This document shows positions 5,458-36,522 of a stretch of DNA of 36,522 nt, in pieces. Origin of the DNA: a virus; IMG/VR virus record IMGVR_UViG_3300036766_000019, positions 1 to 36,522 of that record. One strand, given 5' to 3'. Position 1 is the stretch's first letter, and every line of letters begins with the position of its first letter. The translations under genes and the position numbers were made by a program. Below the pieces are notes generated by a model, which ran no database searches, had not been told where the DNA came from, and saw only the letters and a program-made list of their open reading frames with translations.

Positions 5458-6984
5458 ATGACAACACAGTATATGATTTTAGATTTACCAATAGTTGGAG
5501 TTTCATTAGATCCAACTTGGGCGACTAAACTTAATAATGCATTTACAGCAGTCGATGGTCATCGCCATATCTCTGGTGAAGGACAACTTATTCCTACTGC
5601 TGGTCTTAATATTAACACTGACTTACCATTTAATGGTAATGATGCTGTTGAATTGCGCTCTTCGCAAATGCAGAGTAACGCAGCTGTTCTACCAACCAGT
5701 GATGTTTGTGCTCTATATGTTAAAACAGGAGATTTATACTATAATAATCTTTCAGGAACTCCAATTCAATTAACTACTGGAGATTCTTTGGATACTGGCT
5801 CTCTAGCCATTGATGTTTGGTCTTATAAATTATTAAATGGTAATTATACTATTAATCCTCTTGATAATTTTGTTTATTTTGATGTTAATACAGGAGCAGC
5901 CAGGACTATTAATTTACCTCAAGCAGCAGCTGTAACTGCTGGTAGATATTTTGTCTTCAAAGATACATCTGGTTCAGCAGCTTCCAATAATATTACAGTT
6001 TCTCCTGATGGAGCCGATACTATTGATACAGTTGCAACATCTTCCGTTATTTCTACAGCATTTGGCAGTTTAACATTAGTATCAGATGGCATTAGTGACT
6101 GGAATGTAGTAAATAAGTTAGCAAGCACTGCTACTGCAACATCTTTCGGAACTATTAAATTAGCAGGAGACTTGGCTGGAACAGGTTCTACTGCTACTTC
6201 ACCTAAAGTTGGACATTTAACTGGAGTTTCTGCTTTAGTTGGAATGAATAATAACACTGCACTTGTAGGAAGAAATTCTTTAGATACTTTAGATAGAAAT
6301 CTTATCAAGATAGATGGAACCAACGTGGTTTTGGTAGGAGATACTGCTACTAATACTAAAGTTAGAGGCCTTGCAGTTAATATTGATGGTTATACCACCA
6401 TAGATTTAACTACAACTACTGGAGATTTAACATTAACTTCAGGAACAGGTAAGGATATTAATCTAACAGCAGGAGATGATATTGCATTAACAGCCAATGA
6501 TGCTGTTACTATATTTGGACAAGGAGTTACTCAACTTATTAGTTCTGCTGCCAATGTTGCTATTAGTGGTCAAACCAATACTGCTATGACAGCTCAAACT
6601 GGAACTGCAACAATAACTGGTGCTACTGGTTCTTCTTTACATACAGGAAGCACGTCTGTAGTATTAACAACAAGTTTAATTACATTAACATCTAGCAATG
6701 ATGTTACATTACATTCCACTGGCAACAATATAGTATTAACTTCTGATACAGATAATATTCTTATGACTGCAGTTGATACTATTTCTGGACAAGTATCTCA
6801 TATAATATGGGAAGGTGATACTGATATTGTATTAAGCACTCCTTCATTACAATTAGAACAAGCTGATACATCAACTCAAGTTTCTGCCACTGGTGGTGCT
6901 GATGCTTTACCTGCTGCTCCAGTTGGTTATTTAAGAATTATGATCAATAGCACAATTCGTAAAATTCCATATTACGCAGATTAA
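5458..6984 (+). CDS. Tail fibre/appendage-like beta-repeat protein (508 aa)
   Basis: The N-terminal region (residues 1-45) contains LDPTWATKLNNAFTAVDGHRH, a pattern seen at the start of phage fibre or hub-attachment proteins. Residues about 150-215 carry a beta module (GRYFVFKDTSGSAASNNITV ... VSDGISDWNVV) shared with three other genes here. The C-terminal half is a long run of short Thr/Ser/Asp strands (LTLTSGTGKDINLTAGDDIA and variants) typical of triple-beta-helix shafts. Cell-surface attachment is the likely role. The ribosome binding site GGAAGGAATGAC is strong and nearly identical to that of the gene at 22940. No enzymatic motif is visible. Confidence 0.68.
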   Translation: MTTQYMILDLPIVGVSLDPTWATKLNNAFTAVDGHRHISGEGQLIPTAGLNINTDLPFNGNDAVELRSSQMQSNAAVLPTSDVCALYVKTGDLYYNNLSGTPIQLTTGDSLDTGSLAIDVWSYKLLNGNYTINPLDNFVYFDVNTGAARTINLPQAAAVTAGRYFVFKDTSGSAASNNITVSPDGADTIDTVATSSVISTAFGSLTLVSDGISDWNVVNKLASTATATSFGTIKLAGDLAGTGSTATSPKVGHLTGVSALVGMNNNTALVGRNSLDTLDRNLIKIDGTNVVLVGDTATNTKVRGLAVNIDGYTTIDLTTTTGDLTLTSGTGKDINLTAGDDIALTANDAVTIFGQGVTQLISSAANVAISGQTNTAMTAQTGTATITGATGSSLHTGSTSVVLTTSLITLTSSNDVTLHSTGNNIVLTSDTDNILMTAVDTISGQVSHIIWEGDTDIVLSTPSLQLEQADTSTQVSATGGADALPAAPVGYLRIMINSTIRKIPYYAD

Positions 6985-9900: not shown

Positions 9901-10619
9901 CATTACAAGTTAAATATATTGGTGCTCCTGTAGAGAAATTCAATGATTTAACTATCAGTTCAGTAGTATTATTGAGCAGTAAGAATCAAATTAGATATAT
10001 TACTGAAGATGGAGTGGCATTAATTTATGATTATTTCGTAGATCAATGGGGAACATTCACTAATTATCAAGGAGTTGATTGCGATTTATATAAGAATTCC
10101 TTTATTTTATTGAGAAGTGATGGTAGAACCTTCCAAGAAAACACAGATTCCTTTAGTGATGAGACTAATACTGGAAATACTCAACACATTCCATTAGTTT
10201 TAGAAACATCTAATCTTTCTTTAAGTGGATTAAATGGATTTCAAAGAGTATATCGAGTTGAAATACTTGGAGAATATAAAGGCGCACATCATGGAATTGT
10301 TAGTTTCGCATATGATTACTCACCAATTTATACAGATTCGGCATCATTTGATGGATATGATGTAATTGGACAATTCTCTTATGGTGCTATTGGACCATAT
10401 GGAGAGACAGATGGAGATGTATATGGAGGAAATTATATTCCATATCAGTTTAGGATTCATTTAGCACAACAGAAATGTTCAGCAATTAGGATAAAAGTGG
10501 AAGATACACAATCAGCACCATTCAATGAAGGCTTTAATATTTCAGCAATTACATTACAAGCTGGAATGAAGACTGGTCTTAACAAATTGCCAGCTAATAA
10601 AAATGTAGGGAGTTCATAA
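6993..10619 (+). CDS. Tail nozzle-like protein (1208 aa)
   Basis: This is the longest gene in the genome. The start (IPIAFAQGVDTKTDDKQV, then LLNLQNGLFTNTGKINKRNG, residues about 9-50) is the characteristic opening of podovirus nozzle or tail tubular B-type proteins, where a first strand is followed by N-x-x-F-x-x-x-G-K-x-x-K-R-x-G-x-x-x-L. The remainder is beta-rich and consistent with the propeller-like architecture of T7 gp12/P22 gp10-type nozzles, but is longer than those (about 470-800 residues), perhaps from inserted domains around residues 590-760. ILSPDDINFAVGFNEIFSK (about 868-886), followed by LIIFKTNQIFFISGDGPNN, is another pattern I associate with this group. It follows the adaptor/fibre genes and overlaps the next gene TAATG. 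Five DGY tripeptides occur. Confidence 0.68.
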   Translation: MALQKQNIPIAFAQGVDTKTDDKQVVAGKLLNLQNGLFTNTGKINKRNGLDLLSNQIDITFDHITEGQALSTYQDQLLLFNGKKAFSKLEYNEHWLDKGSVSSVINSTFQVIRNEHQQFNTSSAKISDLECYVWEDSRGGIRYSVVDSITGNFLVADKVINSSGDRPAVLALPATENLASQFVILYTNGTSIQLNRVFTDAIQILKPVETAASDLHENHVYDACLTSSLTYVDNILTAAHNNIYLGYAARYNSSLIFKTPRVIKIDSDNVEPATLDLSFVVIENVNTDGYQAPRIISLTALGDISFGQAGAAAPGAAMIWTTLSSMWIAKVVTYYVGPLVPLQITTPSTNFTISELNKISFIWNDRPFDDRVSFQIFMEFAKPEEYHYYVKACKLNVYLHGEFLAVTQLFDIKLKRGIGLHSKPFVQNDVPYIVAIHQSNIDSTLDLQSTYFILNDQLEVISKVNDNVSGGIDDKLCNIVFDGYTYSKALTKEGEDGYLYSQHFPVSNGIFNFASLKKGKLQSADNTTFSLTGVTKIELDYVSKSHFSSANLNDNLYVIGGILQNYDGSQFFENNFHLYPENVSLDNTLMDVTVTTTGTSIVAQVSAFQMVAATRIDPGQYFTINTAVNIDRYYVWYKIDGIGTDPVLAGRTGLQVDINSYDDGYTVTTTTATVLALISDFIIHANNTNPPLLVITNASAGATGIPTIGNITEGSISNGTYSYLALWKWIDNQGRTHRSTTSVPKQIVISNGLTTNSISVKMPILDLTKKTGITLEIYRTEGNGQGDLFYKVTPLFNPITLISSTNPNITDVYFIDTMSDADLISNELVYTTGGVLDNGSASACSIITTFKNRLFIAGLADKNKINYSKILSPDDINFAVGFNEIFSKELDNRGGIIVALAPMDDKLIIFKTNQIFFISGDGPNNIGQGDFSEPQLITTDVGCDNVNSVVFSPIGLIFKSSKGIYLLDRSLQVKYIGAPVEKFNDLTISSVVLLSSKNQIRYITEDGVALIYDYFVDQWGTFTNYQGVDCDLYKNSFILLRSDGRTFQENTDSFSDETNTGNTQHIPLVLETSNLSLSGLNGFQRVYRVEILGEYKGAHHGIVSFAYDYSPIYTDSASFDGYDVIGQFSYGAIGPYGETDGDVYGGNYIPYQFRIHLAQQKCSAIRIKVEDTQSAPFNEGFNISAITLQAGMKTGLNKLPANKNVGSS

Positions 10620-11734
10620 TGGCAATCGCTGGTCAAATTACTTATGATTTATTCAATAGCACTTCCATCGCTACTACGACAGATGGAACAACACTAACTA
10701 CTATTTATACAGCGCCAGCCTTTCAAGCTATCAATGGTGGGGCTGCAATTACATTAGATATTGTTGGCAATGATTTTGCCAATGATTTAATAGCAACATC
10801 TAAAATCTATGTTATGTTAAAAAATGTAGATGGTTATCCAGCTATGGTAGGTAATCCTGCTCATTTAGTGCCATTTGCTATTGGATCAAGTGATGAGTTA
10901 AAGACTTGTTCAGTAATTGTAAATATTTCTGGAACCAATATAACTGTTAAAGTATTAGGAGTTCCTGGTCATACTATTAAATGGACTTGTGCCAGAGATC
11001 CATCTCTATCAGTATTAGATCCTTGGACATCTGTTCCAGTTCCAAATGATGGAACTGTTTTAACTTGGTCAGCAGCAAATTCTCGTTGGGAACCAAATGT
11101 ATTTTCTGTTGCTAGTGTTGGATCTTTTGATATTCAAGGTCAAGTTGATAATGCATTACAAATTATCTCTAATATTTTATATGCTCAATCTGCTACTTTA
11201 GAAAAGCCAGGTATGGTTAATACGGGTGAGCAAACATTTGGTGGTAATAAAACATTCGGAAGTATAGCATCAGCTTCAGTAGTTTCAGTTCCAGGTGCTG
11301 GAGTTATTAATGTTGGAACAGGTGGAACAGGTGGAATTACAATATTTGGTACTAATGGATTAAATTGTGTTCATGGATCAACTTTAGGAAGTGAAGGTAG
11401 TCATAGTGATAATTTTAATGCAATTTATGGAGCGTTAATAACTGATCATTTTAATTTATCTGCCAATTTAAATTTATCTTCAGGTGGAGATGGTTATTAT
11501 GTAATTTTAGTAGATACAACATCTGCTAGATCAATTACATTACCAAGTCCTGCAGCTGCTGGTAGAACTTTAATTATTAAAGATAAAAGTGGAACTGCTG
11601 CCACTCATAATATTACAATCATTAGAAATGGTTCAGAGAAAATTGAAGGAACAGCAGCAAGTTATGTAATGAATACTAATTTCAAAAATATTAAACTAAT
11701 ATCAGATGGCGCCGATTGGTGGATTATAGGTTAA
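10619..11734 (+). CDS. Tail fibre protein, first of a tandem paralogous pair (371 aa)
   Basis: The first 160 residues (MAIAGQITYDLF ... VDGYPAMVG ... HTIKWTCARDP ... W-P) align by eye with the first 160 of the next gene, including LKNVDGYP, HLVPFAIGSSD and IKWTC. The C-terminal 65 residues (AGRTLIIKDKSGTAATHNIT ... WWIIG) are the beta module also present in genes at 5458, 11736 and 24866. The middle is Gly/Ala-rich beta shaft. A receptor-contacting or attachment fibre is likely. The gene starts TAATG on the nozzle gene and so is translationally coupled. Confidence 0.65.
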   Translation: MAIAGQITYDLFNSTSIATTTDGTTLTTIYTAPAFQAINGGAAITLDIVGNDFANDLIATSKIYVMLKNVDGYPAMVGNPAHLVPFAIGSSDELKTCSVIVNISGTNITVKVLGVPGHTIKWTCARDPSLSVLDPWTSVPVPNDGTVLTWSAANSRWEPNVFSVASVGSFDIQGQVDNALQIISNILYAQSATLEKPGMVNTGEQTFGGNKTFGSIASASVVSVPGAGVINVGTGGTGGITIFGTNGLNCVHGSTLGSEGSHSDNFNAIYGALITDHFNLSANLNLSSGGDGYYVILVDTTSARSITLPSPAAAGRTLIIKDKSGTAATHNITIIRNGSEKIEGTAASYVMNTNFKNIKLISDGADWWIIG

Positions 11735-11735
11735 T

Positions 11736-13247
11736 ATGGCAATTAACGGACAAATTAGTTTAGATTTTACTTCTACGGTAGGAACCACTACTGACAGTGC
11801 AACTCTAACTACTATTTTTAGTGAAAGAGCCTTTTTAGCCAATAATGGTGGGCAGACTACTACATTAGAAATTGTAGGATATGATTTAACTAATTTTGAA
11901 GTAGCAACTTGTAAAATCCATATTCAATTAAAGAATGTAGATGGTTATCCAGTTATTGTTGGAACTCCATCTCATATAGTTCCATTTACTATTGGTTCAA
12001 GTGATGCATTAAAAGGATGTATTGCTAATGTTAATATTAATGGAATCAATTTACGAGTTCAGATATTAGGAATAGCTGGAAGAACTATTAAATGGACTTG
12101 TTCCAGAATACCAGCAACTTCTGTTTTAGATAACTGGACGGCAGTTCCTCCAGCATTAGATGGTTATATTAATATTTGGAATGGAACTTTACTCCGTTGG
12201 GAACCAAAGATTATTGGTAATAATCTTATTGCAGGTGCTACGGTAGGTGGAGATTTATCAGGAACTTTACCTAATCCTACTGTTATTGGATTAAGAACTA
12301 AATCTTTAAACTCTTCATTAGCAAGTATAGGAAGTGCTCAAGATGGATATGCCTTAACTTGGGATAATACTGATGGCTATTGGAAAGCCTTACCGACTGC
12401 AATTCAATTTATTGCAGGAGGAGATTTAAGTGGAACATCTATTTCTCAAAATGTAATTAAAATTAGGAACAATGCAGTTAAAGCAGAAACTCTTGGAGCA
12501 TCTCAAGATGGTTATGCATTAACTTGGGTGAATACTAATAACGAATTCGAAGTAAAACCAATTATAGCTTCTAGTAGTGCGCCTTCTGGAGTAGCAGGTG
12601 GTGATTTAGCAGGAACTTATCCTAATCCTACTGTTAAAACAATAACTGGTAAGTATCAAGTTAATCCATTATTATCAATAATAAATCTTGGAGATAATAG
12701 TATTAGTACAGCTAATATTACTTTAACACCTTTTTCTAGTAGTAGTGCTTTAATATTATCAAGTGGGTCAGAAAATGATTTAGGGTTAGGTGGTGGTCAT
12801 AATGTACTCATTACGGCCGGAACCGGATATTCAGTAATAGTTGGTGATGGAACTACTACTCAAGTAGTAATTAAAAATGGTGGTGGAATTGCAAGTATGA
12901 CATTTAATGGTAGAACCATTAGTTATACTGGAAATTTAATTGGACCAATAGTAAGTCCTGTAACTAATTTTAGCTGTACTGATCAAGATGTAATTATATC
13001 AGTAGGACCAATAACAACAAGTATTACTATTACTCTTCCAGGTGATTTTGATTTTGGAAGATCTATAATAGTTAAAGATGCTACTGGAATAGCTGCTACA
13101 CATAATATTATTATTAATGGAAATGGACACGATATTGGTGGGTTTGGAGCGACATATACTATGAATGTTAATTTTCAAAGTAGGCATTTTGTTGCTACAG
13201 GAATTGCAACCGGACCAAATGCTTTTGCTATATGGAGTATCATTTAA
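11736..13247 (+). CDS. Tail fibre protein, second tandem paralogue (503 aa)
   Basis: The N-terminal domain (1-160) is paralogous to that of the preceding gene. It is followed by GGDLSGTLPNPTV and GGDLAGTYPNPTV modules with QDGYALTW connectors (about residues 168-300), a beta shaft, and the C-terminal module (GRSIIVKDATGIAATHNIII). The two genes are one base apart and the next gene begins directly at the stop. The modular plan fits a trimeric fibre whose parts recombine. No catalytic motif is seen. Confidence 0.65.
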   Translation: MAINGQISLDFTSTVGTTTDSATLTTIFSERAFLANNGGQTTTLEIVGYDLTNFEVATCKIHIQLKNVDGYPVIVGTPSHIVPFTIGSSDALKGCIANVNINGINLRVQILGIAGRTIKWTCSRIPATSVLDNWTAVPPALDGYINIWNGTLLRWEPKIIGNNLIAGATVGGDLSGTLPNPTVIGLRTKSLNSSLASIGSAQDGYALTWDNTDGYWKALPTAIQFIAGGDLSGTSISQNVIKIRNNAVKAETLGASQDGYALTWVNTNNEFEVKPIIASSSAPSGVAGGDLAGTYPNPTVKTITGKYQVNPLLSIINLGDNSISTANITLTPFSSSSALILSSGSENDLGLGGGHNVLITAGTGYSVIVGDGTTTQVVIKNGGGIASMTFNGRTISYTGNLIGPIVSPVTNFSCTDQDVIISVGPITTSITITLPGDFDFGRSIIVKDATGIAATHNIIINGNGHDIGGFGATYTMNVNFQSRHFVATGIATGPNAFAIWSII

Positions 13248-23328: not shown

Positions 23329-23676
23329 ATGAGAACACAAAACGTTCCTCTTTTCACCAACTTTTCTATGGTGCAAGATGGATATTCAAATCCATTTAAT
23401 TTAGAAATGATAACATCATATAGCATCCAAGCTATGTGGAGTGGCACACCTACAGGTTCTCTCTTAATTCAAGCTTCTAATGATCCTACTACTGTTGGAA
23501 CACCAACTAATTGGACTACTTTAGAACCATCTATTATTAGCACTGGAGGCACTTCTGATAATCATCTATGGAAACAATGTCTTGCACCATTCAAATGGAT
23601 TAGATTTGGATATGTTTTTACAACAGGTTCAGGAACTTTAAATGCAAATCTAAATTGTAAAGGAACTGGTCAATGA
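23329..23676 (+). CDS. Small beta-sandwich tail protein B (115 aa)
   Basis: It shares the plan of the preceding 126-residue protein: a DGY near residue 18, a strand with LIQASNDPTT, a central W, and FKWIRFGYVFTTGSGTLNAN at the end. This suggests a duplication followed by divergence. Probable role is a minor fibre or capsid-surface protein. It overlaps the next gene (ATGA). No enzymatic motif is present. Confidence 0.65.
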   Translation: MRTQNVPLFTNFSMVQDGYSNPFNLEMITSYSIQAMWSGTPTGSLLIQASNDPTTVGTPTNWTTLEPSIISTGGTSDNHLWKQCLAPFKWIRFGYVFTTGSGTLNANLNCKGTGQ

Positions 23677-24866
23677 CAGATAAATATACAGATTTAGATA
23701 ACATAACAACTTCTACTTCTCTACCAGCTAATGTTGCAACTGAATCTACTCAATTAGAGGTAGAAGCAGATTTAGATGCTATCTTAGCTCATCAAACCGA
23801 TGGCTATCAAATAACAGCAGTTTCTAATTTTCCATCTCAACAACATGTAATAGTAGATGGTTATGTTCAAACCAATCCGAATACTATAGTTAGTGGTCAT
23901 GTCTCAATAGATGGCTATGTACAAACCAATCCGAATATTAATGTAAATAACTTTCCGTCTCAACAACATGTAATTGTTGATGGCTATGTGCAGACTAATC
24001 CTAATGTGCTTGTAACAGGAACTGTATCAGTTTCAAATATGATAGCATCTGTAGAGACAGGATTAGCTAAAGATGCTACATTAACTAATGGAAGCCAACA
24101 TACTGTAATAGACGGATATGTTCAAACTAATCCAAATATAACAGGTCATGTAAGTATTGATGGATATGTTCAAACCAATCCTCATGTTATTGTAGATGGT
24201 TATGTACAAACTAATCCGAATGTCATAGTGACAGGAACTGTATCAGTTTCAAATATGATAGCATCTGTAGAGACAGGATTAGCTAAAGATGCTACATTAA
24301 CTAATGGTACTCAACATACAATAATAGACGGATATGTTCAAACTAATCCTAATGTTATTGTAACTGGAACAATTACTGCTAATGCTGGCTCTGGTAATTT
24401 CACTGTAGTTCAAGCCACTGGCACTAATTTACACGCCGTAATAGACGGTTATGTGCAGACTAATCCAAATGTAATTATATCATCTTCTGCTCTGCCAACT
24501 GGTGCTGCTACAGAAGCTACACTAAATGATATTGAAACTGATATTGATTTAATATTAGCTAATCAAACTAATGGTACTCAACATACTATTATAGATGGTT
24601 ATGTTCAGACAAATCCTAATATTATAGTTACATCATCTGTTTTAGCAACTGGAGCTGCTACATCAGCAAAACAAGATACTATAATTACTAATTTACAAAC
24701 ATTAAATTCATTAATTCCATCTACTTATGATTATATTAGTCTTGCTTATACTGGTAATAATCTTACAACTGTTTTATTTAAAAATGGTGGTTCTGGTGGA
24801 ATTTTAATTAGTACTTTAACACTTGATTATTCAGGTAGTCAATTAATTTCGGTAACAAAAACTTAA
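23673..24866 (+). CDS. Repeat fibre protein with nine DGYVQTNP units (397 aa)
   Basis: The whole protein is built from short repeats. DGYVQTNP occurs nine times between about residues 60 and 320, usually as VIVDGYVQTNPN, alternating with NFPSQQHVIV and VTGTVSVSNMIASVETGLAK units. The NFP--Q and VTGTV-VSN elements are familiar from long beta-helical phage proteins. The N-terminus is acidic/Thr-rich; the C-terminal about 60 residues (STYDYISLAYTGNNLTTVLF) form a distinct cap and lack the repeats. The repeat codons differ at many synonymous sites, so the protein pattern is old and selected, while one 77-nt segment is copied exactly. Receptor-binding shaft is the likely role. Confidence 0.66.
   Translation: MTDKYTDLDNITTSTSLPANVATESTQLEVEADLDAILAHQTDGYQITAVSNFPSQQHVIVDGYVQTNPNTIVSGHVSIDGYVQTNPNINVNNFPSQQHVIVDGYVQTNPNVLVTGTVSVSNMIASVETGLAKDATLTNGSQHTVIDGYVQTNPNITGHVSIDGYVQTNPHVIVDGYVQTNPNVIVTGTVSVSNMIASVETGLAKDATLTNGTQHTIIDGYVQTNPNVIVTGTITANAGSGNFTVVQATGTNLHAVIDGYVQTNPNVIISSSALPTGAATEATLNDIETDIDLILANQTNGTQHTIIDGYVQTNPNIIVTSSVLATGAATSAKQDTIITNLQTLNSLIPSTYDYISLAYTGNNLTTVLFKNGGSGGILISTLTLDYSGSQLISVTKT
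24015..24307 (+). repeat. Exact 77-nt direct repeat, two copies 216 bp apart
   Basis: Bases 24015-24091 and 24231-24307 are identical. The offset of 216 nt is 72 codons, so the reading frame is kept. Flanking copies of the same protein repeat have diverged at synonymous sites, which marks this duplication as recent compared with the rest of the repeat array. It is a likely site for expansion or contraction by homologous recombination. Confidence 0.9.
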
Positions 24867-25777
24867 TGGCAATTCAATATATTTTTAATGCATTATCTGG
24901 AAAATTTGATGCAGTTCAAACTGCTACTGGATCAGCTGGAGGAGATTTATCAGGAACATATCCTAATCCAACTGTTGCTAAAGCACAAGGAAATACATTT
25001 AAAGTAGAGACATTAAGTTCAGTGAATGATGGCTATGTTTTTATGTGGAATAATTCTAATAGTCAATGGGAGGCTACTAAATATGCAGGAGATGTCTCTG
25101 GAACTACAGCAACTTCTCAAGTAGATAAACTTAAGACAAAAGCTTTAGCGACAGCTTTATCTACTATTAATTCTATTCAAGATGGTTATGTATTAACTTG
25201 GGTTAATAGTTCTACCGAATGGCAAGCTAAACCTGCAACAGGTGGAAGTGGTGTAACTACAGTTGCAGCAATAGATACCAATGCTAATAGTAATGGTCTA
25301 TTTATTTCTGGTGTTAATATTTCTACTCAATCTGCTAGTGCTACTAATCCGGGAGTTGTTAATACTACTACTCAAACTATGGCGGGAGCTAAAACTTTCT
25401 CTGGAGCTGCTGTTTTCTCTTCTACAGTTTCTACTGGGGTACTAACAGCTGGAACTACTACTGGTAAGAATACTATGATTGGTGGTCAAATTTGGACTAC
25501 TAGAACTCTGGCAGCTGACCTAACTATTGATACTACTACTACAGATATGATTATTCTATGTAGTACGGCTGCTGCTAGAGCAATTACTTTGCCTGCTCCG
25601 GCTAATGGAAGAATATTTATTATTAAAGATTCTACTGGTCAAGCTGAAACCAATAATATTACATTAGTAAGAAATGGATCAGAAAAGATTGAAGGTATAG
25701 CAGCTTCTAGAGTTCTATCAACTAACTGGGGAGCTTGGACTATATGTTCGGACGGTGTTAACTGGTATTTCATATAA
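24866..25777 (+). CDS. Tail fibre module protein (303 aa)
   Basis: It is composed of pieces found elsewhere in the genome: TATGSAGGDLSGTYPNPTVAK near residues 19-40 (two copies in the gene at 13248), NDGYVFMWN and QDGYVLTWV connectors, then the C-terminal module GRIFIIKDSTGQAETNNIT ... VNWYFI (shared with genes at 5458, 10619 and 11736). The C-terminal 65 residues are especially close to those of the 371-residue fibre (RNGSEKIEG identical). A swap-in receptor-binding or attachment fibre is likely. It starts TAATG on the repeat-fibre gene. Confidence 0.65.
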   Translation: MAIQYIFNALSGKFDAVQTATGSAGGDLSGTYPNPTVAKAQGNTFKVETLSSVNDGYVFMWNNSNSQWEATKYAGDVSGTTATSQVDKLKTKALATALSTINSIQDGYVLTWVNSSTEWQAKPATGGSGVTTVAAIDTNANSNGLFISGVNISTQSASATNPGVVNTTTQTMAGAKTFSGAAVFSSTVSTGVLTAGTTTGKNTMIGGQIWTTRTLAADLTIDTTTTDMIILCSTAAARAITLPAPANGRIFIIKDSTGQAETNNITLVRNGSEKIEGIAASRVLSTNWGAWTICSDGVNWYFI

Positions 25778-25820
25778 TTAAATTTCAACCAGTAATGGTT
25801 ATGTTGGCAAGGAGGTATCA

Positions 25821-26422
25821 ATGTTTCAAATATATTATGTAGAAAACAAAATCAACGGAAAATGTATATTGGACAAACTACTATGCCAATACAAAAAAGG
25901 TGGTATGTTCACAGTAGAGGTGGTTCACACTGTCTTATTCTAAAAAACGCTATCAATAAATATGGAGTAGATAATTTTACCATCAATGTTTTTGAGATTT
26001 ATGGCACACAAGAAGAAGCTGATCAGGCAGAGATTTATTGGATTGAACAATTGAAACCACAATACAATATTAAACAAGGTGGTTCTCGTGGTAAGCACTC
26101 TGAAGAGACTAAAAAGAAAATAGGTCTTGCCTCTTTGGGAAACAAACATGCAGCAGGAATGGCTCCAAACTCTACCTCATTTAAACTTGGACATTCGGCT
26201 CCATCAACAGCTTTTCAAAAAGGAATGGTTCCATGGAATGTTGGTAAGACTTATTTCAATCCAAAAATATCTAAAGCTTTAAAAGGTAGATGTAAATTCA
26301 CGCCAGAACAAATCAATGAAATGAAAAATATGAAACAAAATGGATTATCTGATCGTGCCATTGGTAGGCATTTTAATTGCTCACACCAAACTATTTCGAG
26401 GTTAATAAATGGCATTAGTTAA
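25821..26422 (+). pseudogene. GIY-YIG homing endonuclease, split by a one-base frameshift
   Basis: A strong ribosome binding site (GGAGG, 25811-25815) precedes ATG 25821, which encodes MFQIYYVENKINGK, the first strand of a GIY-YIG domain. That frame stops at 25941. The rest of the domain, MYIGQTTMPIQKRWYVHSRG..., is in another frame from 25862. Joining the frames at the AAAA run (25859-25862) restores the canonical I-Y-Y-x-E-N-K-I-N-G-K-x-Y-I-G-Q-T and a 200-residue protein. Downstream lie a helical region with the E of TQEEADQAEIYWIEQ, the KHSEETKKKIGLASLG nuclease-associated repeat and a C-terminal HTH (NGLSDRAIGRHFNCSHQTISRLING) for DNA binding. Such enzymes are free-standing mobile genes; this one lies between fibre genes. 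It is either inactive, restarted at 25862 (without the first strand) or expressed by -1 slippage. Confidence 0.85.
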
Positions 26423-28052: not shown

Positions 28053-28331
28053 ATGGACAACCTAACTAAAATTATTCTCAAATATTATATTCGTAGGAAT
28101 AGAACTAGGTATGCTATCCAGCAAGCCTTTTTAAAACATTGGTCTATTGTGCCGGTCAAAGGCAGCATCAGGTTCTCTCGCAAAGTAATTTTTGAGAGCA
28201 TTGAGGAATCTTTAAGATTGAGTCCGAACAACTACCACAGGCACTATATGCAGGCTTGCCTGCGTCAGCTTGGAGTAGTTCTAATTGATGCAAGAGGATA
28301 TAGATTTTTTAAAGGAATTAAAAAAATCTAA
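28053..28331 (+). CDS. Basic hypothetical protein (92 aa), possibly nucleic-acid binding
   Basis: An upstream in-frame ATG at 28029 lies inside the previous gene; ATG 28053, just after that stop, is preferred. The product is strongly basic (IILKYYIRRNRTRYAIQQAF, then SIRFSRKVIFESIEESLRL), with helices and a short final beta hairpin (LGVVLIDARGYRFFKGIKKI) suggesting a winged-helix-like DNA-binding fold. That is inference from pattern only. It ends tail to tail with a leftward gene, overlapping by 4 nt. Confidence 0.62.
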   Translation: MDNLTKIILKYYIRRNRTRYAIQQAFLKHWSIVPVKGSIRFSRKVIFESIEESLRLSPNNYHRHYMQACLRQLGVVLIDARGYRFFKGIKKI

Positions 28332-28588
28332 TCTTCTGATAATCCTTGAAGGTCACACCATTCTTGCCATGTATTGACAATAACGCAAGGAGGATCAATC
28401 TTTTTTGCTTCTACTTTAGCGACATACTTATTGTAACAGATAGCGTTAATTCCTGCATGAATGCTACAAATGCATAGACATGCTAGACTAATTTCGAGTG
28501 CTATTCCAAGCACTTGTAAGCAACAACATAGTGCTGCTACCATAGCAATTAATAGTGATAAGAAACCAATAAATATAACTAATATCAT
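28328..28588 (-). CDS. Cys-rich small membrane protein (86 aa)
   Basis: The frame is open to an ATG at 28636, but ATG 28588 overlaps the stop of the upstream leftward gene (TAATG), the arrangement used throughout this genome, and avoids a 49-nt overlap, so it is preferred. Residues 1-25 and 26-50 form two hydrophobic helices that contain Cys at about 21, 22, 23, 37, 39, 41 and 51. The C-terminal 35 residues are soluble (VEAKKIDPPCVIVNTWQEWC). It may be a lysis, superinfection-exclusion or other accessory membrane protein; no family is recognised. Confidence 0.55.
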   Translation of the reverse strand: MILVIFIGFLSLLIAMVAALCCCLQVLGIALEISLACLCICSIHAGINAICYNKYVAKVEAKKIDPPCVIVNTWQEWCDLQGLSED

Positions 28589-28746
28589 TATACTTGCCAC
28601 GCCAGTTCCATAAGCTGTTGCATATACAAAGAACATTGAAACTTGCCTTTATAGATGTTCCATTTCATTTGAGATATTTGCTTCTCCACTCGGAAGCCTT
28701 GACCTTCAAGATAGCTGATTGCGGTGTGCATTGTCATCGTTTTCAT
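28588..28746 (-). CDS. Small hypothetical protein (52 aa) heading a leftward pair
   Basis: Reading leftward from ATG 28746, the frame gives MKTMTMHTAISYLEGQGFRV... QMKWNIYKGKFQCSLYMQQL... and stops on the first base of the membrane-protein gene (TAATG). It looks like a short helix-beta protein; family unknown. Two further in-frame ATGs lie within six codons and no good ribosome binding site is seen for any, so the exact start is uncertain. A sigma-54-type site ends about 40 nt upstream. Confidence 0.58.
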   Translation of the reverse strand: MKTMTMHTAISYLEGQGFRVEKQISQMKWNIYKGKFQCSLYMQQLMELAWQV

Positions 28747-28759
28747 ATAACTAGTTTAA

Positions 28760-28776
28760 CCATCGTTATCCGATGG
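28760..28776 (-). promoter_or_regulatory. Inverted repeat in the leader of the leftward pair
   Basis: CCATCG-TTATC-CGATGG is a perfect 6-bp inverted repeat with a 5-nt loop. It lies between the sigma-54-type element at 28785-28799 and the ATG at 28746, close to the expected transcription start. It could be an operator or a 5'-UTR hairpin. Confidence 0.45.
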
Positions 28777-28784
28777 GCAACCAC

Positions 28785-28799
28785 GCGAAAATCATGCCA
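28785..28799 (-). promoter_or_regulatory. Sigma-54-type (-24/-12) promoter-like element, leftward
   Basis: On the minus strand the site reads TGGCATG-ATTT-TCGC, one mismatch (TCGC for TTGC) from the sigma-54 consensus, with the invariant GG and GC at the correct distance. The extended string GTTGGCAYGATTTTYGC is shared with the site at 30204. The predicted start would be near 28773, some 27 nt before the 52-residue gene. It lies 5 bp past the T-run of a leftward terminator. Confidence 0.45.
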
Positions 28800-28803
28800 A
28801 CGC

Positions 28804-28838
28804 AAAAATACGGCATGACCGATACAATCATGCCGTAT
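28804..28838 (-). terminator. Leftward intrinsic terminator
   Basis: ATACGGCATGA (28808-28818) and TCATGCCGTAT (28828-28838) form a perfect 11-bp stem with a 9-nt loop. Read leftward, the stem runs into TTTTT (28808-28804). It terminates the transcript of the HTH gene at 28917-29366 about 80 nt after its stop. Confidence 0.88.
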
Positions 28839-28916
28839 TCTACAGTTCAGAAAATGGTTGAAGGTCGCTCGTATGGAAACCTACCACCGGCAGCACTATG
28901 CTGCAAAGGTTCTATA

Positions 28917-29366
28917 TCAAAACTTCTCTTCCAATAAATTATTCATTTCTTCCAATATTTCTTTTATTTCTTTGTTCTCTTTTATATATCTTTTCATTTT
29001 CGGAATAACTCCGCCATAACGCTTTTTATTATTATAATCATAATTGCCAAAAAGTGATTTCGTTATTCCGCTCTGATTGGTTCCACTTTGATTTGATATT
29101 TCAGTTTGAGTATAGCCATCAAGAACTAGATTTAATACGGCGAATTGTTTTGGAGTGCAAACTTCTTTTGCTATTTGCCAGGTCTTTTGTTTTAGTAAAT
29201 CTTCCAATTCATAATATCTTTCATTATAATGAAATGGATTTAAATGGTTTTCAATGCTTCTACTATTAGGAATATAGGATAGAATTTCATTGCTAACAGT
29301 AAATTCACAAATTAACCATTGGTATTTCTGCGACCTGGATTGTCGTTTATCTTCATATTTTGCCAT
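28917..29366 (-). CDS. HTH protein with sigma-70 region 4/LuxR-like domain (149 aa)
   Basis: Residues about 70-105 (TPKQFAVLNLVLDGYTQTEI then SNQSGTNQSGITKSL) form the classical pattern of sigma-70 region 4 or LuxR-type HTH: a helix ending L-x-x-G-x-T/S-x-x-E-I, then a recognition helix. A second conserved-looking part (YDYNNKKRYGGVIPKMKRYI) and an acidic helical tail follow. The N-terminal 65 residues are not recognised. It probably binds DNA and regulates phage or host promoters. GGAGG lies 7 nt before the ATG. It is the last gene before a strong leftward terminator and has its own candidate -10 (TATAAT) upstream. Confidence 0.7.
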   Translation of the reverse strand: MAKYEDKRQSRSQKYQWLICEFTVSNEILSYIPNSRSIENHLNPFHYNERYYELEDLLKQKTWQIAKEVCTPKQFAVLNLVLDGYTQTEISNQSGTNQSGITKSLFGNYDYNNKKRYGGVIPKMKRYIKENKEIKEILEEMNNLLEEKF

Positions 29367-29392
29367 AATTAACCTCCATTGGAGATGAAGAT

Positions 29393-29419
29393 ATTATATC
29401 AAAATATTATAACTTCCAA
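29393..29419 (-). promoter_or_regulatory. Candidate sigma-70 promoter for the HTH gene
   Basis: On the minus strand a perfect TATAAT (29398-29393) lies about 30 nt upstream of the HTH gene. The best -35 is TTGGAA (29419-29414) at a short 15-nt spacing, and a second TATAAT occurs at 29411-29406. The -10 is good and the -35 weak, so activity is uncertain. Confidence 0.35.
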
Positions 29420-29502
29420 ATCCATAATTGAGGATACCGTGAAGGAGGAAAGTATTTCAGCATACATTCAAAAAAGTGTTGAGATTTCTGTTGTTTATTC
29501 AT
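29407..29502 (-). CDS. Possible tiny gene (31 aa)
   Basis: ATG 29502 overlaps the stop of the nuclease-like gene by 8 nt, and the frame runs to TAA at 29409-29407. The product MNKQQKSQHFFECMLKYFPP... is aromatic-rich with no known family. There is no ribosome binding site, so translation would have to be coupled. It is included as a weak possibility because the space is otherwise unexplained. Confidence 0.3.
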   Translation of the reverse strand: MNKQQKSQHFFECMLKYFPPSRYPQLWIWKL

Positions 29503-29971
29503 AATTGATTATTTTAGGTAATTTAAATTTATCAAGCAAAATGCAAGCTTTATCCAGTTTCATATAAGAAGGCTTCTCTTTTCGTAAATAAGCTTCAAAT
29601 GCAACATAATCGCTCTCTGTTAGATATCTGCGATCCTTTTGTCCAGCTGATAACAAGAACTGTTTGGCTGAATTATTGGCAGCTATTAAATAGAAATTCA
29701 AGTAGTTTTTCTCTTCATTATTATTTGTTAATAAAACGAAGACAGGAATATCTTTTGCTAGATTACGGAGAGCTTTAAATTGGAAATCGTTTAGATCAAT
29801 AGTTTTAATATTAGCATTCTTCTGTTCGATTAATGCTAAAGTTTGGCACTCATTATTATATACTTGAAACATCTGATAATCTATATCCTGGATGTACCAA
29901 TCATTCTTAAGCTGACGGTGCCAAAGTGAAAAACTATGATCTCTTCGAAAAGAAATTTCATCTTTTACCAT
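29495..29971 (-). CDS. PD-(D/E)XK-like nuclease (158 aa)
   Basis: The pattern W-H-R-Q-L (17-21), D29-I-D31-Y and then A-L-I-E49-Q-K51 fits the PD-(D/E)XK nuclease core: an acidic residue on the first strand and E-x-K on the second, with a helix after (LNDFQFKALRNLAKD) and a strand (IPVFVLLTNN). A family of small phage and bacterial proteins with DID...(A/P)-L-IE-x-K shows this layout. Metal-dependent DNA cleavage is therefore likely, with replication, recombination or host-DNA attack as possible roles. ATG 29971 is used; a TTG lies one codon earlier. It sits 23 nt after a short acidic gene in the same leftward unit. Confidence 0.62.
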   Translation of the reverse strand: MVKDEISFRRDHSFSLWHRQLKNDWYIQDIDYQMFQVYNNECQTLALIEQKNANIKTIDLNDFQFKALRNLAKDIPVFVLLTNNNEEKNYLNFYLIAANNSAKQFLLSAGQKDRRYLTESDYVAFEAYLRKEKPSYMKLDKACILLDKFKLPKIINYE

Positions 29972-29994
29972 CAATTAAGATGGTAAATTATCAC

Positions 29995-30141
29995 CTACTC
30001 TAATTCTATAGTTTCGCAAGAAATTATCCATTCACCACTTAATTTTTCTGCATAGGCTTCTTCATAATCCTCTTCACTTTCATAAGAACTTTCATCTTCC
30101 ATTTCAAATTCATGGATTTCAATTACTCTAAACTTTTTCAT
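29995..30141 (-). CDS. Acidic hypothetical protein (48 aa)
   Basis: Read leftward from ATG 30141, the product begins MKKFRVIEIHEFEMEDESSY, continues ESEEDYEEAYAEKLSGEW, and ends with a short strand (IISCETIELE). It is very acidic (about one third Asp/Glu). Such tiny acidic proteins are sometimes DNA mimics or inhibitors, but nothing here proves that. A strong promoter (TTGACA-N17-TACGAT) lies about 30 nt upstream, and the nuclease gene follows after 23 nt, so both are likely cotranscribed. Confidence 0.65.
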   Translation of the reverse strand: MKKFRVIEIHEFEMEDESSYESEEDYEEAYAEKLSGEWIISCETIELE

Positions 30142-30172
30142 AATTTCGGCGCCTTTCATCTCGCCTCACTTT

Positions 30173-35686: not shown

Positions 35687-36522
35687 ATGACTGAAGTATA
35701 TACTGAATATGTTAATAACAGTGCAGACACTGCATTCGCTGACAAGTGGTGGAATGCTGATGCAGCAACTGCTAATAAAAGTCTCTTCGGACTTGTAAGA
35801 TATGTAGAAAAGAATCAAGCATATCGTAGTGCATTAAACTTAAGATACGCCAGACTGTATTCTAATACAGAAATCCTTGGTCTATCATCTGGAACCTATG
35901 CCAGAACCACTTCCAATAATTTTGCCAATAATAGAGTAACGTTAAATGTAGTCAAGTCTTGTGTAGATACTGCAGCTTCCAAAATCTCCAAGAATAAACC
36001 ACGACCATTGTTCTTAACTGAAAATGGAGATTATAATCTTAAACATAAAGCCAAACTTCTTAATCAATACATGGAGGGTATGTTTGATGAAACTGATATT
36101 TATCGAACCGGTCAAAGAGTCTTTACCGATGCTTGTGTCTTTGGAACAGGATGTCTAAAATTATATATTGATCCAGCTTCCAAGAAGATTAAGGCAGAAC
36201 GTATATTTATTGATGAAATCATCATTGATGATATTGAGGGGATGTATGGAACTCCAACTCAAATCCATCAGCGTAAATATTATGATAGAGATCAACTTAT
36301 CAAAATGTTTCCTGATAAGGAAGAACAAATCAAATCTGCTTCAACTGCATTAAGAGGTGAGACTGCTACTCAAAGCACTGCCAATAACGTTATTGTCGTA
36401 GAATCCTGGCACTTACCTTCCAGCAAAGATGCCAAAGATGGCAAGCATGCTATTTGTGTAGATAATGCAACACTTATCTTTGAAGATTATGATAAGAACT
36501 TCTTTCCATTTGTCTTCTTCCG
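35687..36522 (+). CDS. Portal protein, N-terminal part (gene continues at base 1)
   Basis: ATG 35687 has AAAGG 7 nt upstream and lies 9 nt after the previous stop. The frame is open to the end of the window and continues, through the 127-nt overlap, into 1-1169 for a total of 625 residues. The N-terminal region (SLFGLVRYVEKNQAYRSALN) and the segment DIYRTGQRVFTDACVFGTGCLKLYID are characteristic of large podovirus portals (the V-F-x-D-A-x-x-x-G-T-G pattern), followed by F-I-D-E-I-x-x-D-D wing motifs. It follows the large terminase, as expected. Confidence 0.88.
   Translation, partial: MTEVYTEYVNNSADTAFADKWWNADAATANKSLFGLVRYVEKNQAYRSALNLRYARLYSNTEILGLSSGTYARTTSNNFANNRVTLNVVKSCVDTAASKISKNKPRPLFLTENGDYNLKHKAKLLNQYMEGMFDETDIYRTGQRVFTDACVFGTGCLKLYIDPASKKIKAERIFIDEIIIDDIEGMYGTPTQIHQRKYYDRDQLIKMFPDKEEQIKSASTALRGETATQSTANNVIVVESWHLPSSKDAKDGKHAICVDNATLIFEDYDKNFFPFVFF
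36396..36522. repeat. Terminal direct repeat, right copy (circular overlap)
   Basis: Identical to bases 1-127. Removing one copy closes the contig into a circle of 36,395 bp without altering the portal frame. Confidence 0.93.

Follow-up and report, generated by a model that had tools for sequence, protein, structure and literature searches.

A GIY-YIG homing endonuclease gene of a tailed phage, split between two reading frames inside its catalytic motif and probably inactivated by a recent one-base indel

The virus record IMGVR_UViG_3300036766_000019 consists of 36,522 bases and was analysed over its entire length; the window, as the term is used here, is positions 1 to 36,522. Between two genes of tail type it contains the parts of a GIY-YIG nuclease, the first strand of which is read in one frame and the rest in the -1 frame. 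The question is whether the parts belong to a single gene and, if so, whether that gene is broken, is expressed across the break, or is only apparently split. The features of the locus are as follows.

25809-25816, plus strand: Shine-Dalgarno-like sequence AAGGAGGT, its AGGAGG 5 nt before the ATG at 25821
25821-25943, plus strand: frame-0 open reading frame of 40 codons, from ATG 25821 to TAA 25941-25943
25859-25862, plus strand: AAAA run where the frame switches; the break separates the codons of K14 and Y16 (numbering of the joined protein)
25862-26422, plus strand: -1 frame open reading frame of 186 codons, beginning MYIGQTTMPIQKRWYVH and encoding the rest of the GIY-YIG domain, NUMOD3 and a C-terminal HTH_38
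25865-25867, plus strand: Tyr of YIG, in the -1 frame
25898-25900, plus strand: Arg27, in the -1 frame
26030-26032, plus strand: Glu71, in the -1 frame
26066-26068, plus strand: Asn83, in the -1 frame

The frame-0 reading frame is translated from ATG 25821 as MFQIYYVENKINGKCILDKLLC... Its codons 1-14 encode MFQIYYVENKINGK, with the first GIY-YIG strand FQIYYVENKINGK, and the remaining codons are out of frame. The -1 frame has no ATG, GTG or TTG start upstream of 25862. The complete nuclease is encoded by neither frame alone, and the split between K14 and Y16 leaves no intact gene able to make it. The sequence-only reading had assigned the strong ribosome site and the first strand to one frame and everything from YIG onward to the -1 frame, with the switch at AAAA, and both the coordinates and the HMM scores given below bear it out. 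Its description of the 186-codon downstream frame as undecayed also holds: the frame is full length and retains the catalytic residues and the HTH.

The scores indicate that the two parts belong together. Against the Pfam GIY-YIG profile (PF01541) the -1 frame alone scores 37.2 bits, matching from profile position 16, and the protein joined with the upstream strand scores 49.6 bits, matching from position 2; a single PF01541 domain with both its GIY and its YIG strand is obtained only by joining the two frames. The joined protein, the -1 part, the wrong frames and controls were scored with an HMM derived from 91 homologues. The joined protein reaches 128.0 bits as against 106.4 for the downstream part alone, so that the upstream 14 codons add 21.6 bits, and the two wrong upstream frames give 109.7 and 108.2 bits. 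The score of the joined frames is not attained by any of 2000 shuffles of the upstream 42 nt, the best of which gives 117.6, or by any of 2000 42-mers taken at random from the window, the best of which gives 117.1. A GIY motif upstream by chance is ruled out by these 4000 controls, and for the same reason the two halves are taken to be pieces of one gene.

The gene belongs to a known family. Its best hit among the PHROG families is phrog_314 (homing endonuclease, E 5e-23), and its domains follow the order GIY-YIG, NUMOD3 (22.5 bits) and HTH_38 (31.5 bits), the latter two over the Pfam cut-offs; it thus combines the nuclease domain with the DNA-binding motifs (NUMOD/HTH) of a free-standing phage homing endonuclease. 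The free-standing phage GIY-YIG genes of the PHROG 314 family have the same layout, and the position between structural genes is also found in two related phages, but here YIG is in another frame than the GIY strand. Residues 4-83, the catalytic domain, align with residues 5-87 of I-TevI of phage T4 (1LN0 and 1MK0). As read from the alignments, these two entries each differ by one change to Ala, at Arg27 in 1LN0 and at Glu75 in 1MK0. The counterparts of I-TevI Arg27 and Glu75 are Arg27 and Glu71 here, so that the catalytic Arg and Glu are both conserved; E71 and N83 are invariant in the alignment (A1). The catalytic domain is thus shared with I-TevI, which however is intron-encoded and intact, whereas the present gene is split and a scan of the window against Rfam, group I introns included, gave no match. 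An intron-encoded endonuclease was rejected on this ground, and the gene therefore appears to be free-standing.

The first and last 127 bases of the record are an exact direct repeat (1-127 = 36396-36522), and the portal gene becomes one long uninterrupted frame once the contig ends are joined over it. Because the portal frame is unbroken over the joined repeat, the record is regarded as a circularly assembled complete genome of a tailed phage of about 36.4 kb. For the major capsid protein, identity is 84-85% with three short IMG/VR contigs; with many others it is 60-69%. This protein served as the bait with which relatives were retrieved from viral contigs; the terminase and the neighbouring tail protein, used in the same way, found no match there. 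The neighbours of the endonuclease gene are the following.

24866-25777, plus strand: upstream gene for a tail-type protein of 303 aa
26409-26987, plus strand: downstream glycine-rich tail-type gene (PF21722, phrog_863)

The ATG of the downstream gene (26409) lies inside the endonuclease frame, the overlap being the last 14 nt of the latter, and its SD-like GAGG (26398-26401) is also within that frame. We infer that clean deletion of a dead gene may be slower where, as here, the next tail gene has its ribosome site and its start codon inside the 3' end of the endonuclease gene. For a comparison with empty sites in relatives the tail region is too divergent, the neighbours matching only over a common C-terminal domain. 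This domain (TLPxxAxxGRxxIIKDxTGxAxxNNI...GSEKIEG) is similar in the tail-type genes 5458-6984, 10619-11734, 11736-13247 and 24866-25777, and matches to it recur in relatives, which suggests repeated duplication inside the tail cluster. Another tail-type protein, 23673-24866, has many repeats of the motif IDGYVQTNPN. Elsewhere in the genome, 32983-33856 contains a gene for what may be an HNH-type protein, with CxxC pairs (E 0.32 for Pfam HNH, below the cut-off), and after it an overlapping gene for an HTH protein; the two may be a further mobile nuclease pair. A block of minus-strand frames, 28328-30159, runs opposite to the structural genes and is without clear Pfam assignment; in one of its frames, 28917-29366, a segment looks by eye like an HTH.

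Homologues of the endonuclease are numerous but distant, the identity to any of those found being at most about 48% over a partial match. The 91 collected came from viral contigs, phage records, phages with related capsids and one bacterial contig. No close relative of the gene was found by DNA in the phage collection or with single-sequence patterns in viral contigs; a search for the DNA pattern of GGSRGKH-SEET returned one distant intact homologue (L185), and the search of bacteria for close relatives gave a single distant match. GIY and YIG are in one frame in all 92 homologues (the 91 and L185), so that neither the split nor the slip site is conserved among them, a count to be read with the fact that retrieval from viral contigs keeps the best single-frame matches and thereby favours intact genes. 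A homologue is present in three of 50 capsid-related records, many of the 50 being fragments. Two of these sites were checked, 8080-8583 of L104 and 9113-10108 of L106; both are intact single-frame genes at other structural-gene sites of phages with a related capsid. The sporadic presence beside essential genes, and the absence from most capsid relatives, fit the patchy distribution typical of homing genes. L104 also has an HNH-like frame (5831-6241) between the capsid gene and the next structural gene, and the lineage therefore appears to have been repeatedly invaded by nucleases. At the end of the record of Pseudoalteromonas phage J2-1 (L006/L050) there is an intact GIY-YIG frame for which GenBank gives no annotation.

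The split could also be read in other ways. The sequence-only reading had offered programmed -1 slippage limiting a toxic nuclease as an alternative to recent mutation. On this account, programmed or 'corrective' frameshifting on A_AAA would provide a low, controlled output of the nuclease of about 200 residues. The tetramer A_AAA does fit the minimal Z_ZZN tetranucleotide for -1 shifts, and low-level shifts of this kind are described at CGA_AAG sites in the IS1222 transposase and in Bacillus cytidine deaminase (PMC5009743); the downstream frame is undecayed, and a hairpin is predicted about 7 nt 3' of the slip tetramer.

25870-25911, plus strand: predicted hairpin of 12 pairs with a 16-nt loop, 3' of the AAAA run; -10.6 kcal/mol

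The site is, however, GGA_AAA_TGT and not of the CGA_AAG type, its A_AAA tetramer being the only slip-prone element; no X_XXY_YYZ heptamer occurs in the overlap 25821-25943, as had been noted from the sequence. In-frame A_AAA occurs 64 times in the other genes of the phage, and at 15 of these 64 sites the downstream fold is as stable; so it is in four of 48 GC-matched homologues. The z-score of the hairpin is only -1.6, and there is no SD-like stimulator just upstream, the nearest such sequence, the SD of the start codon, being over 40 nt distant; neither stimulatory element thus exceeds chance within range. With a common tetramer, an unexceptional hairpin and homologues none of which uses the split, the proposal of programmed slippage finds no support, and we consider it very improbable. 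A trace of fusion product from slippage on A_AAA is plausible. That slippage on a lone A_AAA in the catalytic motif deliberately limits the mobile nuclease, making it a homing endonuclease controlled by recoding, is if anything still harder to credit; if full-length protein were made by slippage, recoding would be linked to the control of a selfish nuclease.

Initiation at the internal ATG 25862 would instead yield an HTH protein lacking GIY, acting as a DNA-binding repressor or simply neutral. An ATG does open the -1 frame, the C-terminal HTH is intact, and the homing endonuclease I-TevI can be a transcriptional repressor (PMC10448857). GGA lies just 2 nt before this ATG, a spacing too short to make a good ribosome site, and the strong start, 41 nt upstream, belongs to the other frame. 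In the product a single-domain fold would be deprived of its first strand and its GIY tyrosine; we give this possibility very little weight. Somewhat less remote, yet still unlikely, is an error of assembly or sequencing, or a minority variant taken as consensus, in which case the gene would be in one frame in most virions. In favour of this, the difference is a single base beside a homopolymer and the gene is otherwise undamaged. But the run is only four bases long, and the end repeat, exact over its 127 bp, suggests a short-read de Bruijn assembly (apparently k = 127), in which indels in short homopolymers are rare. The portal frame is intact over the joined contig ends, and the 18,048 nt of the window that are conserved with relatives contain no other adjacent frame switch, so that the contig is not generally error-ridden.

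The explanation that we consider probable is that a real, recent single-base indel inactivated a free-standing homing endonuclease gene of this phage. The ancestor would have been a free-standing GIY-YIG homing endonuclease gene inserted between the two tail-type genes, and an indel of one base near 25859-25864 would have put the GIY strand out of frame with the remainder of the nuclease. Ribosomes starting at the strong site, 25821, would then make a 40-residue peptide ending at 25941, and the -1 frame would be left with no well-placed ribosome site of its own; for that reason hardly any complete nuclease, if any, should be made, and the element has probably lost its mobility. That the indel is real and recent, that it destroyed the activity and that a mobile homing endonuclease was the ancestral state are all three deduced, and probable. 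Since no close relative of the gene was found, it is the intact state of the 186-codon frame, and not any comparison between alleles, that supports a recent date for the indel. The other half of the initial proposal, that the GIY-YIG gene mutated recently and is otherwise undecayed, is thus supported by the full-length -1 frame, the retained catalytic residues and HTH, and the one-frame homologues.

Broken genes of this kind have precedents. In Lactobacillus phage LL-Ku a 'putative truncated GIY-YIG endonuclease' is, as here, a broken GIY-YIG gene near structural genes, but there the lesion is a stop codon in frame, situated farther downstream, and GIY and YIG still share a frame, whereas here the frame is split. 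In that gene (L003 1450-1959) clear homology continues past the in-frame stop despite the annotation as truncated. Frameshifts, stops and deletions are reported to be common in the homing endonuclease genes of ICP1 phages, and one of these, gp115/gp116, lies in two frames and was judged inactivated (PMC10448857). The two-frame split is common to both cases, but gp115/gp116 is an HNH-AP2 gene split between its domains, whereas the present split is inside the nuclease active site. Frameshifted homing endonuclease genes in phages are therefore already documented. Decay is a common fate of such genes, and on the simplest account the gene described here, its remainder still intact, would be one further phage homing endonuclease gene at the start of that decay.
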